Of a stretch of DNA of 24,552 nucleotides, positions 6,344 to 9,634 are shown piece after piece (the first letter of the stretch is position 1; each line of letters starts with the position of its first letter). The DNA comes from a virus: positions 1 through 24,552 of IMG/VR virus record IMGVR_UViG_3300031951_001156, one strand, 5' to 3'. Position numbers and translations under genes: made by a program. Below the pieces are notes generated by a model, which searched no databases, was not told where the DNA came from, and saw nothing but the letters and a program-made list of their open reading frames with translations.

Positions 6344-6739
6344 ATGAAAGGAAAAATTCTCCAATCAATGAAGCCAAGAGCCAAAAAACCATTGGCAGGG
6401 GAGGCGGGTGTTCAGTTTACAATAGTCCAATATATCAAAGTAATGTACCCAAATGCACTTTATTGCGCCTCAGCAGGGGGAATGTTCACGAGTATGAAGC
6501 AGGCCATCAAGATGAAGATGACTGGCTACGTTAAAGGGTTTCCCGACCTTCAAATATGCGAACCAAACGAAAAATATCACGGGTTATTCATCGAAGTTAA
6601 GACGGATAAAGGTGTTGTAAGCAAGGAGCAAAAGGAATGGATTAAGCAATTGAACAAACGTGGCTATTATGCTACTTATGTAAAAGGCTCGGAAGATGCC
6701 ATTAAATTGATAGATGCATATTTCAAGAACGCAATATGA
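6344..6739 (+). CDS. VRR-NUC domain nuclease, 131 aa
   Basis: This is a small PD-(D/E)XK-type nuclease of the VRR-NUC family. The motifs are GFPDLQI (D68), GLFIEVKT (E84, K86) and SKEQKEWI (Q96), the expected D...ExK...Q catalytic arrangement, followed by the typical terminal EDAIKLIDAYF. Such stand-alone domains are common in phages and may process branched DNA or assist packaging. It is the first rightward gene. A weak promoter-like TTTG...TAATTTAG lies directly upstream, leaving only a few bases of leader. Confidence 0.85.
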   Translation: MKGKILQSMKPRAKKPLAGEAGVQFTIVQYIKVMYPNALYCASAGGMFTSMKQAIKMKMTGYVKGFPDLQICEPNEKYHGLFIEVKTDKGVVSKEQKEWIKQLNKRGYYATYVKGSEDAIKLIDAYFKNAI

Positions 6740-7196
6740 GCAGCATAGGCGGTTAGCCATCAATCTTTGTAGCGGTAACGTTTACGAAGCGGATGACCTT
6801 CTGCACGATACTTTACTTTGCATTTTTGAAAATGGCAATGAGATAAGGAATAGTGAGCATTACATCAATCACGCATTAAAGATTGCGCACTGGTCTAATC
6901 GCAGTCACTACCACAACACCATTCGCAAGTTCAACCAGATGAGTGATGAACCAACGGAATCACAATTGCGAGACTACGAATCGGTTACTGTGTGGTTAGG
7001 TGATCGCATTACAAATGAACAATTAGATATATTGATTTCTCGCCTTCCTTTCTTTGAACGTGAGGTGTTTTATTTATATGCCTTAAATGACTTTTCATAT
7101 AATGATTTGAGCATTGATACAGGCATACCAAAGAAAGTCCTTTATAACGCCGTTAAATACGCTAAGAACGAAATTAAAAAAGCAATAGTGATATGA
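6714..7196 (+). CDS. Sigma-70-like (ECF-type) transcription regulator, 160 aa
   Basis: Residues 24-39 (YEADDLLHDTLLCIFE) resemble sigma region 2. The C-terminal part, with LPFFEREVFYLYALNDFSYN followed by DLSIDTGIPKKVLYNAV, resembles the region 4 HTH (LPxxEREVF...SYxELS...). The length fits a minimal two-domain ECF sigma factor. It could redirect host RNA polymerase to late phage promoters, but divergence means an anti-sigma or HTH-only role cannot be excluded. The start overlaps the nuclease gene by 26 bp. The stop overlaps the next ATG by ATGA. Confidence 0.7.
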   Translation: MHISRTQYEQHRRLAINLCSGNVYEADDLLHDTLLCIFENGNEIRNSEHYINHALKIAHWSNRSHYHNTIRKFNQMSDEPTESQLRDYESVTVWLGDRITNEQLDILISRLPFFEREVFYLYALNDFSYNDLSIDTGIPKKVLYNAVKYAKNEIKKAIVI

Positions 7197-7683: not shown

Positions 7684-7881
7684 ATGAGCAACCTTGTAGC
7701 TTCTTTTTTTATGTGGCATTCACTGATCGCCTTATTACTTACTGGCTTGATGCTGGCAGCAATCCGGTACCACTCCCTACCTTTTACTCGTGAAAATATT
7801 TTGGGAGTAATCTTTACCGCTATTTGTTGGCCTGTTGTGTTGGCAATGACAATTGTGGAATTGTTTAAAAATAATGAGTAA
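7684..7881 (+). CDS. Small membrane protein, 65 aa, two transmembrane segments
   Basis: The protein has two hydrophobic stretches, LVASFFMWHSLIALLLTGLM and ILGVIFTAICWPVVLAMTIV, separated by a short polar loop, with a charged end (ELFKNNE). I chose ATG 7684; a GTG at 7681 overlapping the previous TAG is an alternative. Two-TM topology and small size fit a class II holin, but no endolysin is nearby, so that remains a guess. It is the last gene before the non-coding region at 7882-8443. Confidence 0.65.
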   Translation: MSNLVASFFMWHSLIALLLTGLMLAAIRYHSLPFTRENILGVIFTAICWPVVLAMTIVELFKNNE

Positions 7882-7896
7882 AAAATAAAATATTTT

Positions 7897-7927
7897 TTTG
7901 AAATATAATATTTAATTTCTATATTTG
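7897..7927 (+). promoter_or_regulatory. Rightward promoter of the RNA locus, Bacteroidetes type
   Basis: TTTG at 7897-7900 and TATATTTG at 7920-7927 are 19 bases apart. The stretch from TTG through TATATTTG and the next two bases matches the leftward early promoter at 26 of 32 positions by hand alignment. No plausible gene starts soon after it, so the transcript begins with the structured RNA region. Confidence 0.8.
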
Positions 7928-7951
7928 TGCCGTTGAGTGGTTACACGTTTT

Positions 7952-8004
7952 CCCCCTTTCGTTATAACCCTCAACAAGTTAATACGATTGGGGGAGTTTT
8001 TTTT
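7952..8004 (+). terminator. Attenuator-like terminator with competing upstream hairpin
   Basis: CCCCC (7952-7956) plus TCGT (7959-7962) pair with ACGA (7984-7987) plus GGGGG (7990-7994), optionally extended by TAAC/GTTA (7965-7968/7978-7981), and are followed by eight Ts (7997-8004). An upstream stem, GTTGAG/CTCAAC (7932-7937/7970-7975) with GGTTA/TAACC (7939-7943/7965-7969), uses 7965-7968 and encloses the C run in its loop. The two folds therefore compete or form a pseudoknot. Confidence 0.6.
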
Positions 8005-8096
8005 AGTCAGGTGGCGGAATGGTAGACGCTATAACGAATAAGAGAGCAAGGCTACACGTTGATCCTTGCGTACAGGTTCGAATCCTGTCCTGACTA
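8005..8096 (+). tRNA. tRNA-like element, Leu-type D arm, no canonical anticodon arm
   Basis: AGTCAGG (8005-8011) pairs with CCTGACT (8089-8095) as a perfect 7-bp acceptor stem, followed by discriminator A8096. The T arm ACAGG-TTCGAAT-CCTGT (8072-8088) is perfect. The D arm GCG...CGC (8014-8029) with GGTAGA is typical of tRNA-Leu. Between them a strong GCAAGG/CCTTGC stem (8046-8051/8064-8069) has a 12-base loop, but 8030-8045 do not form a 5-bp/7-base anticodon stem-loop in any register I tried. CCA is not encoded. It may be a degenerate type II tRNA or a tRNA mimic. The amino acid cannot be assigned. Confidence 0.5.
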
Positions 8097-8315
8097 CAAC
8101 TCAATCATTGGCGGTGTAAATACGTTTGGGTGATTGTTTTAAGCGTTACAAGGGGATGATGGCACAGCGCAGCGGTAGCATTAAGGACAAAGCCGCAAGA
8201 CCATCACACGAGCCGAGAATCGTGTTAAAGTAGTGTCCATGTCAAAGGTCAACGGTGATACTTTGAAACTTGAAAGCGAAAGGACTCATTCGACGGATTG
8301 AATGAACTTTTAAGC

Positions 8316-8371
8316 AAAGAGAGTGAATGACAACTGATGTAACTATCAGTGGGATATTCTCATTCTCTTTT
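8316..8371 (+). terminator. Terminator-like long hairpin closing the RNA locus
   Basis: AAAGAGAGTGA (8316-8326) pairs with TCATTCTCTTT (8360-8370) over 11 positions including one G-U. The loop contains a second stem, ACTGAT/ATCAGT (8333-8338/8345-8350). The T tract is short (TTTTA), so it may be a weak terminator or simply the 3' domain of the structured RNA. Confidence 0.5.
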
Positions 8372-8387
8372 AGCTCAGGATCTATTC

Positions 8388-8416
8388 TCTGGATTAAATT
8401 ATATTAACTATATTTG
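8388..8416 (+). promoter_or_regulatory. Probable promoter of the ParB-methyltransferase gene
   Basis: TATATTTG (8409-8416) lies 28 bases before the ATG at 8444. TCTG (8388-8391) is 17 bases upstream of it, a one-mismatch -33 element. It lies just after the terminator-like hairpin, which makes a separate transcript for the next gene plausible. Confidence 0.55.
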
Positions 8417-8443
8417 AATAAAATATAGATTTTTATCTACTTA

Positions 8444-9634
8444 ATGAATATGAATAAAATTGCCAAAATTGAATACGTTCCAATATGGAAAGTAAAGAAC
8501 AATCCAAATAACCCTCGTCTTGTTAAAGATGATAAGTTCAAAAAGTTGGTGAACTCAATTAAAGAGTTTCCCGATATGTTAGACAAACGACCAATCATTG
8601 TTAATGAAGATATGATTGTATTGGGTGGCAATATGCGATTGAAAGCTTGCAATGAAGCAGGACTAAAAGAAATTCCAATCATTGTAACCAACTGGACTGA
8701 GGAACAACAGCGCCAATTTATTATTAAAGACAATCTTGGTTATGGTGAATGGGATTGGGATATGATAGCCAATGAATGGGATGAGAATGAGTTAAATGAA
8801 TGGGGCTTAGATATTCCAAACTTTGAAGGCGATATGGTAGAGTTGGATGCAGTGGAAGATGATTTCGATGCACCAGAAGGAGGTCTTGAAACTGATATTG
8901 TATTGGGAGACTTATTTGAGATAGGTGAACACCGTTTACTATGTGGTGATAGTACTGATAGTGATTCAGTGGCAAAGTTAATGGATGAACAAAAAGCTGA
9001 TATGGTTTTTACTGATCCACCATATAATATCAACTACGGCAATATAAAACACCCAAAATTTAAACAAAGAGATATTGAAAACGATAATATGAGTAGTGCA
9101 GACTTTAAAAACTTTTGCAATTCTTTTGTATCAAATATTAAATTATTTTGTGATGGGGTTGTATATTGTTGGGCAGGTCCAGGAAAAGACGGTAGAATTA
9201 TGTTCACAGCGTTAGATGAAGCATTGCATAATTCAACAATGATAGTATGGAATAAAGATCAATTTACATTAGGTAGAGGTAAATATCAAAATAAAAATGA
9301 GGTGTGTTGGTTTGGTTGGAATAAATCAGGTGAAACTTTCACAGATGATAGAACTTTAACAAATGTGTGGGATTTTGAAAGACCTAAAAAGTCTGAATTA
9401 CATCCAACAATGAAACCTATAAAATTGGTTGAAAACGGATTAAATCATAATCCAAAAGCAAAATCAGTTCTTGATTTATTTTTAGGTTCAGGTTCTACAA
9501 TGGTTGCAGCGCACCAACTAAAACGCAAATGCTATGGTATGGAACTTGACCCAAAGTATTGCCAAGTGATTGTAGATAGAATGAGAAAGCTTGACCCTGC
9601 ATTAGTAATCAAAAAGAATGGGCAGGTTATATAA
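8444..9634 (+). CDS. ParB-like domain / DNA methyltransferase fusion, 396 aa
   Basis: Residues 1-125 are a ParB/Srx-like domain (VLGGNMRLKACNEAG, 59-73, and the IKDNLGYGEWDWD segment). Residues about 150-385 are an amino-methyltransferase of the N6-adenine/N4-cytosine type. It has TDPPYNINYG (190-199, catalytic DPPY), HPTMKP (320-325) and the SAM-binding VLDLFLGSGSTM (342-353) near the C-terminus, with the catalytic motif preceding the SAM-binding motif. Such fusions are frequent in phages and may protect DNA from host restriction. The start could be 8444 or 8450 (MNMNK). The methyltransferase half is more AT-rich than the ParB half. Confidence 0.93.
   Translation: MNMNKIAKIEYVPIWKVKNNPNNPRLVKDDKFKKLVNSIKEFPDMLDKRPIIVNEDMIVLGGNMRLKACNEAGLKEIPIIVTNWTEEQQRQFIIKDNLGYGEWDWDMIANEWDENELNEWGLDIPNFEGDMVELDAVEDDFDAPEGGLETDIVLGDLFEIGEHRLLCGDSTDSDSVAKLMDEQKADMVFTDPPYNINYGNIKHPKFKQRDIENDNMSSADFKNFCNSFVSNIKLFCDGVVYCWAGPGKDGRIMFTALDEALHNSTMIVWNKDQFTLGRGKYQNKNEVCWFGWNKSGETFTDDRTLTNVWDFERPKKSELHPTMKPIKLVENGLNHNPKAKSVLDLFLGSGSTMVAAHQLKRKCYGMELDPKYCQVIVDRMRKLDPALVIKKNGQVI

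Follow-up and report, generated by a model that had tools for sequence, protein, structure and literature searches.

What is the function of the roughly 440 bases at positions 7928-8371 of the virus record IMGVR_UViG_3300031951_001156, and are they an RNA at all? The window (the whole stretch analysed, a 24,552-base IMG/VR record whose positions serve as coordinates throughout) has been the subject of a preliminary description, which took this place for a dense locus of structured RNA that contains a tRNA-like element. Covariation among homologues, far above that in shuffles, shows as far as sequence comparison can that 7928-8371 is indeed a genuine structured RNA, and the tRNA-like element stands up as well. 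The same comparison divides the locus into three modules in a row that can be separated from one another, which we call A, B and C. The stems seen originally are not simply nested, since several of them are pseudoknotted. The modularity, the status of B as an optional cassette from a large family, and the unrelated RNA domains that occupy the same site in relatives all go beyond the preliminary description.

The locus directly abuts a promoter of the Bacteroidota type. Positions 7897-7927 hold the sole exact match to TTTG-N19-TAnnTTTG in the window, where 0.20 would be expected. This is the consensus cited for Bacteroides, and its -7 part has been confirmed in Flavobacterium (PMC7366714; the consensus is also cited in PMC2483708). 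Most relatives preserve the -7 box as TATMTTTG; in most of them the -33 TTTG is not preserved. About 445 nucleotides (nt) separate the promoter from the end of the terminal hairpin at 8371, which agrees with the closing hairpin reported earlier, and they contain no convincing gene: open reading frames of at least 40 amino acids end at 7881 and resume at 8437/8444. The raised G/C content (34/60 in 8161-8220) is also exact, and only 0.5% of 60-nt windows are as high. The minimum free energy fold surpasses shuffles by a modest margin only (z -2.1, reached by 0/100 of them), so that the stems by themselves are not decisive and covariation is. Homologues were collected with a terminase query and DNA patterns, giving about 160 viral loci from IMG/VR (designated by L numbers). 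In local BLAST comparisons with these loci, the phages matched by the segments 7914-8005, 8004-8097 and 8109-8416 are not the same, which makes the region modular, and the middle segment is frequently lacking.

Module A, a pseudoknot in which helix S1 crosses helix S2 and a U-tract follows, was found in 65 distinct copies. In an alignment of 54 sequences its covariation score is 0.322, compared with 0.092 in shuffles (0/500), and 99.1% of the cells are paired; when the partners are slid, only 33-55% are paired, and a gapless recount concurs with the alignment. Three relatives in which A is missing have a version of it with exchanged S2 strands (a reading by eye of these three sequences): ATTCCGttGGGG comes first and CCCCttCGGAAT second, S1 is GTGGAC/GTCCAC, and the UU/UU mismatch and the U-tract are retained. 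Among the 17 near-full relatives, 14 have A and these three have the strand-exchanged form there instead, with a 3' domain that we call E behind it, so that a 5' pseudoknot stands at this site in 17/17 near-full genomes. The module A search model R1 recovers its targets in 14 phage records and has no match in 148 Bacteroidota genomes; matches of the A pattern in bacterial genomes were judged to be chance on inspection. Matches of microRNA families to module A (in L010 and L152) lie far below gathering scores and were likewise taken as chance.

For module C, the proposed structure has 66 pairs. As it was drawn by eye from the same 25 homologues, the proportion of paired cells (96.7%) is biased upward. 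The argument rests instead on the shuffle test and on two-sided changes, which occur at 23 pairs compared with 9.4 in shuffles (0/500) and at 1-5 when partners are slid; the sequences are related, and these counts are not independent events. Together with the score of module A, this is the covariation among homologues that the preliminary description had named beforehand as a test of the structured RNA. PK2 crosses P3 and P4 and is therefore a true pseudoknot, with a covariation that depends on one divergent homologue (L152). In the terminal hairpin P9, 93.6% of the cells are paired, two pairs show two-sided changes and the inner stem covaries too; a simple terminator scan made no call on P9. 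Within C, a 25-codon frame at 8155-8229 (MMAQRSGSIKDKAARPSHEPRIVLK) is open in nearly all homologues and has no third-position bias; it is probably a by-product of RNA conservation.

Module B has the acceptor stem AGTCAGG/CCTGACT, a Leu-type D arm and a canonical T arm with a TTCRANT loop. In a search of 7880-8445, the Rfam tRNA model matches 8005-8096 with 39.5 bits (E 6.7e-7); ARAGORN makes no call on B, and a scan of the whole window with Rfam gives no match to it. While the acceptor, D and T arms are those of a tRNA, an anticodon arm (5-bp stem, 7-nt loop) is missing, and B therefore cannot decode. The module is optional: copies 95-99% identical to it occur in relatives with or without C, some of them elsewhere in the genome, whereas the flanks are mostly 75-92% identical. 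A nine-base stretch of module A, TTCGTTATA (7958-7966), is perfectly complementary to TATAACGAA (8030-8038) in the insert of B. This complementarity is found in 5/7 loci with B and in 1/58 others, an association that haplotype linkage explains equally well.

B belongs to a large family. A scan with a pattern for the T arm and the 3' acceptor strand, followed by a collection step that demanded a pairing acceptor beginning with RGTYRGG, yielded at least 177 distinct tRNA-like chassis of 66-190 nt total length, with at least about 145 unrelated clusters of inserts. The scan pattern covered the 3' half only, and the 5' half is also kept, as AGTCAGGTGG in 138/177; the independent evidence here is the part in the D arm, since the acceptor start was required for collection. 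The flanking bases are T(-1) in 150/177 (85%), A73 in 159/177 (90%) and C74 in 173/177 (98%), which are the bases favoured by bacterial RNase P. None of 395 sampled Bacteroidota genomes contains a 24-mer of the chassis, and matches of INPHARED records to B extend over 45% of it at most. Loci L172-L289 are among those that hold such phage tRNA-like elements with constant acceptor, D and T chassis and variable inserts. One of the loci (L181:1-3838, minus strand) is an RNA island almost 4 kb long, in which genuine tRNAs are accompanied by at least six tRNA-like elements of the chassis type and by many other apparently structured spacers, without a clear gene. Other small structured-looking elements, such as GACAGCTCGGAATAGACGAG, lie near tRNA-like elements or between A and C (L013:3240-3364, minus; L192:260-235, minus; L103:5725-5781).

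The domain that follows A is exchangeable. In 65/65 distinct copies of A it is C, D or E (L152 has a divergent C), with D in place of C in 17 copies and E in 21. In five cases, identical A cores of about 62-65 nt precede different 3' domains, so the parts evidently reassort or recombine. Module D (about 340 nt; carriers include L047, L056, L076, L119 and L138) has 90 pairs in RNAalifold, 28 of them with two-sided changes (0/500 shuffles). Covariation in E is weaker than in A, C and D: for its proposed pseudoknot, TCTCC/GGAGA with TTGCC/GGCAA, compensations are few but consistent, and one hairpin is poorly placed on the alignment. Neither D nor E has a relevant Rfam match. A reading of E as an F-rich protein was rejected, as the lengths of the hairpin and of the G-run differ by single bases from one relative to another, leaving no conserved reading frame, and there is no Pfam match. 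E is followed, after a G-run, by a pyrimidine tract of about 60 nt that is nearly invariant (L004, L009, L032, L080 and others). At the level of sequence, the comparison shows A and C to be selected as RNA, B to be an optional insert, and C to be replaced by D or E in relatives.

Table 1. Positions of the RNA locus, its promoter and its helices in the window, and of the strand-exchanged version of module A in relatives.
Feature	Position	Strand	Remarks
Bacteroidota-type promoter	7897..7927	+	-33 TTTG 7897-7900, 19-nt spacer, -7 TATATTTG 7920-7927
Module A, H-type pseudoknot and U-tract	7928..8004	+	54-sequence alignment, covariation
Module A helix S1	7932-7937/7970-7975, extended by 7939-7943/7965-7969	+	
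Module A helix S2	7952-7956/7990-7994 and 7959-7962/7984-7987	+	conserved UU/UU internal mismatch
Module A U-tract	7997-8004	+	
Module B, tRNA-like element	8005..8097	+	acceptor 8005-8011/8089-8095, D arm 8014-8029, T arm 8072-8088
Module B insert in place of anticodon arm	8030-8071, hairpin 8046-8051/8064-8069	+	42 nt, 6-bp hairpin
Module B A73 and C74	8096-8097	+	
Module C	8099..8371	+	25-sequence alignment
Module C P1	8102-8108/8130-8136	+	two-sided changes
Module C PK1	8122-8125/8143-8146	+	nearly invariant pairs, weaker
Module C P3	8157-8162/8201-8206	+	GATGG/CCATC to GATTG/CAATC
Module C P4	8172-8175/8193-8196	+	GCGG/CCGC to ACGG/CCGT, also to ACCG/CGGT
Module C PK2	8185-8189/8234-8238	+	GGACA/TGTCC to GGGTA/TACCC
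Module C P5	8207-8211/8220-8224	+	CACGA/TCGTG to CGAGA/TCTCG
Module C P6	8242-8251/8256-8266	+	TCAAAG/CTTTGA to CTAATT/AATTAG
Module C P8	8286-8291/8296-8301	+	no two-sided change, 86% paired
Module C P9, terminal hairpin, candidate terminator	8319-8330/8360-8371, inner stem 8334-8337/8346-8349	+	ends in UUUU
Strand-exchanged version of module A	L300:4060-4155; L302:10390-10480; L305:2105-2005 (minus)		

The preliminary description had left it open whether the locus belongs to a known family or to a new class, and the covariation in homologues supports a structured RNA that is perhaps of a new class. GOLLD, ROOL and tmRNA, which had been put forward for checking, were not matched: searches with the GOLLD and ROOL models came up empty both in the window (at gathering scores) and in 7880-8445 (at E<=10), and neither ARAGORN nor Rfam calls a tmRNA (whole window and 7880-8445). 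No family reaches its gathering score in the scan of the whole window, and tRNA is the only significant family in 7880-8445 at E<=10. Betaproteobacteria-1 RNA (RF02932) scored 24.2 bits against a gathering score of 49.4, with no match in the homologues L010 and L152. The JUMPstart/ops motif (RF01707; GCGGTAGC) scored 16.2 bits (E 1.1, gathering 35) and was taken as chance; L010 has the motif conserved at the same place (16.2 bits), and L152 has none. Literature searches confined to the open-access papers of PMC yielded no description of such a tRNA-like family or of this RNA. On these searches, the locus matches no described RNA family apart from the tRNA fold of B.

Several known systems nevertheless resemble parts of it. 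GOLLD consists of one conserved and one less conserved region, joined by a linker that sometimes contains tRNAs (PMC12286853). Like GOLLD, the locus is phage-encoded and strongly structured, with a constant region, a variable region and a tRNA-type element in the linker. However, the Rfam searches give no homology, the locus is about 445 nt long compared with more than 800 nt in many GOLLD members, it is the 5' module that is constant and the 3' domain that is exchanged, and the linker element is tRNA-like rather than a tRNA. ROOL, a phage RNA often found near tRNA islands, has several pseudoknots (PMC12286853), as does our locus, which differs in having no Rfam match and in being modular with exchangeable 3' domains. 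Leu-type tRNAs and the tRNA scaffold share with B the acceptor, D and T arms as well as flanks of the RNase P type. The latter is a laboratory construct in which cargo reportedly substitutes for the anticodon arm; B is natural and phage-borne, and its family offers the many insert types counted above. In tmRNA, a tRNA-like part is joined to another, pseudoknotted RNA, but in B the tRNA-like part is a continuous insert and is not built from two RNA ends. Phage HK022 has a structured RNA, put, at the start of a transcript; the present locus is larger, pseudoknotted, equipped with exchangeable 3' domains and with an end hairpin of its own.

How might such a locus work? The model that we favour, tentatively and with less than even confidence, is a modular RNA acting in trans, from which RNase P and RNase Z release B and leave stable A and C. 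The locus would be transcribed from its own Bacteroidota-type promoter into a noncoding phage RNA about 445 nt long. Module A would cap this RNA at its 5' end, either stabilising it or ending it prematurely. Where B is present, host RNase P and RNase Z would excise it as a stable RNA on a tRNA chassis, and A and C would become separate RNAs. C, D and E would be alternative effector RNAs that act on the machinery of the host or of rival phages, which would explain their swapping at a fixed site. For this effector role, the least certain part of the model, the only arguments are the swapping of modules and their position.

An excisable, trans-acting design is favoured by the way in which C is joined to what precedes it. 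In loci without an insert, the U-tract of A doubles as the 5' strand of P1 (as with CTTTCTTTTA/TAAAGGAAAG in L010), which joins A and C into a single structure. Where B or another insert is present, this strand is rebuilt 3' of the insert, as CTCAATCA in the window, L008, L015, L021 and L103 and as TTCTTTTAA in L013 and L020. C can therefore fold without A after any insert, and folding alone fits with an excision of B by RNase P and RNase Z. Several points weigh against this model. The U-tract of A could end transcription before B and C. The complementarity of the locus to the rest of the window reaches at most 12-13 nt. The conservation of the B-family flanks could stem partly from shared descent. 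Finally, the genes 3' of the locus lie on the same strand in a long operon, which leaves room for a leader role in cis.

Such a leader is the most serious competitor, although we consider it rather unlikely. Module A and its U-tract would be an attenuator or antitermination element, comparable to put of HK022, that governs read-through into the late operon downstream, and C, D or E would belong to this switch. A terminator-type stem and U-tract directly after the promoter, the sigma-factor-like gene nearby and the long same-strand operon downstream would suit this role, as would the pairing of the U-tract with C (P1) in loci without B, which makes alternative folds plausible. But C has an end hairpin of its own with UUUU, the simple terminator scan called none, the next gene varies among relatives (methyltransferase, MIILPA or others), and interchangeable unrelated 3' domains with tRNA-like inserts would be unusual for a single switch.

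An assembly made of RNA only, a multimeric cage or ring as in GOLLD and ROOL with the tRNA-like part in the linker, is quite improbable. The layout of GOLLD is similar, tRNAs included (PMC12286853), and the RNA of the locus is compact and rich in pseudoknots, but the shorter length and the lack of an Rfam match speak against it, as does the fact that the proposed structures of C, D and E have no fold in common. We also give little credence to an antisense or superinfection-immunity RNA, in which C, D and E would be specificity types that act by pairing to a transcript of the phage or the host, in the manner of P1 c4 or P4 CI RNA. Several mutually exclusive types at one locus and a short RNA beside a regulatory gene are as this idea would have it; the longest complementarities within the window, however, fall at unconnected genes, and conservation tracks the helices.

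Could B be no more than a tRNA gene in decay that is carried along in the locus? The missing anticodon arm is in keeping with decay, and ARAGORN calls without introns are as frequent in the family (38/177) as in a control with shuffled inserts (38.3). A candidate role of the insert as a tRNA intron was rejected, as allowing introns gives 123 calls compared with 113.9 in shuffled inserts (range 108-123), no clear excess. Random decay would strike all parts, however: the acceptor, D and T arms and T(-1), A73 and C74 are intact while the inserts differ completely, the helices of the inserts are longer than those in shuffles (5.12 compared with 4.60 bp, standard deviation 0.05), and recurrent insert types preserve their stems by paired changes (from a reading of the listing by eye). 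Decay is an improbable explanation. That the locus encodes small proteins (the 25-codon frame or a -1 frame), with structure being secondary, is very improbable. Almost every homologue leaves the two frames open, but substitutions by codon position (3/7/7 and 11/9/16) have no clear third-position excess, changes track base pairs, longer readings have stops or lack a start in several homologues, and there is no Pfam match above cut-off and no PHROG match.

Taken more widely, the model of a trans-acting RNA describes a platform for RNA effectors, with a universal 5' pseudoknot, exchangeable effector domains and a phage-only tRNA chassis without anticodon arm whose hypervariable cargo is released by host RNase P and RNase Z; this we regard as possible rather than probable. 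If it is true, several unrelated RNA domains (A, C, D and probably E) reassort at one site of a phage clade in the manner of protein cassettes, and gene finders have been missing or misnaming a very large natural family of RNAs built on a tRNA chassis. The widespread chassis would be the natural counterpart of the engineered scaffold. Why phages should possess such ornate RNAs, and odd tRNA-like genes as well, would become a testable question, with clear predictions for the processing, stability and function of parts that are short and can be made in vitro.

The window belongs to a tailed phage, given matches to Terminase_3, a head protease and a tail tape measure among its proteins. The nearest isolate by terminase is Flavobacterium phage 11b (45% identity), which together with the promoter type suggests a Bacteroidota host; a search of phage 11b for module A gave no match. 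At the DNA level, known phages gave mainly short matches, to tRNA genes or other short stretches. The viruses that carry the RNA locus form a freshwater family, with Bacteroidota as the probable hosts. Their gene order is constant, with a VRR nuclease, a sigma-factor-like protein, a Cys-rich protein and a 65-amino-acid membrane protein (TM65) followed by the RNA locus, which keeps its position between the TM65 gene and a gene for MIILPA or a methyltransferase in the genomes compared. Upstream of the RNA, window positions 6714-7196 encode the sigma-70 region-4-like protein (matched by PHROG 1740 with E 4e-9 and by Pfam below its cut-off), which may be a sigma factor of the phage for the promoter at 7897-7927.
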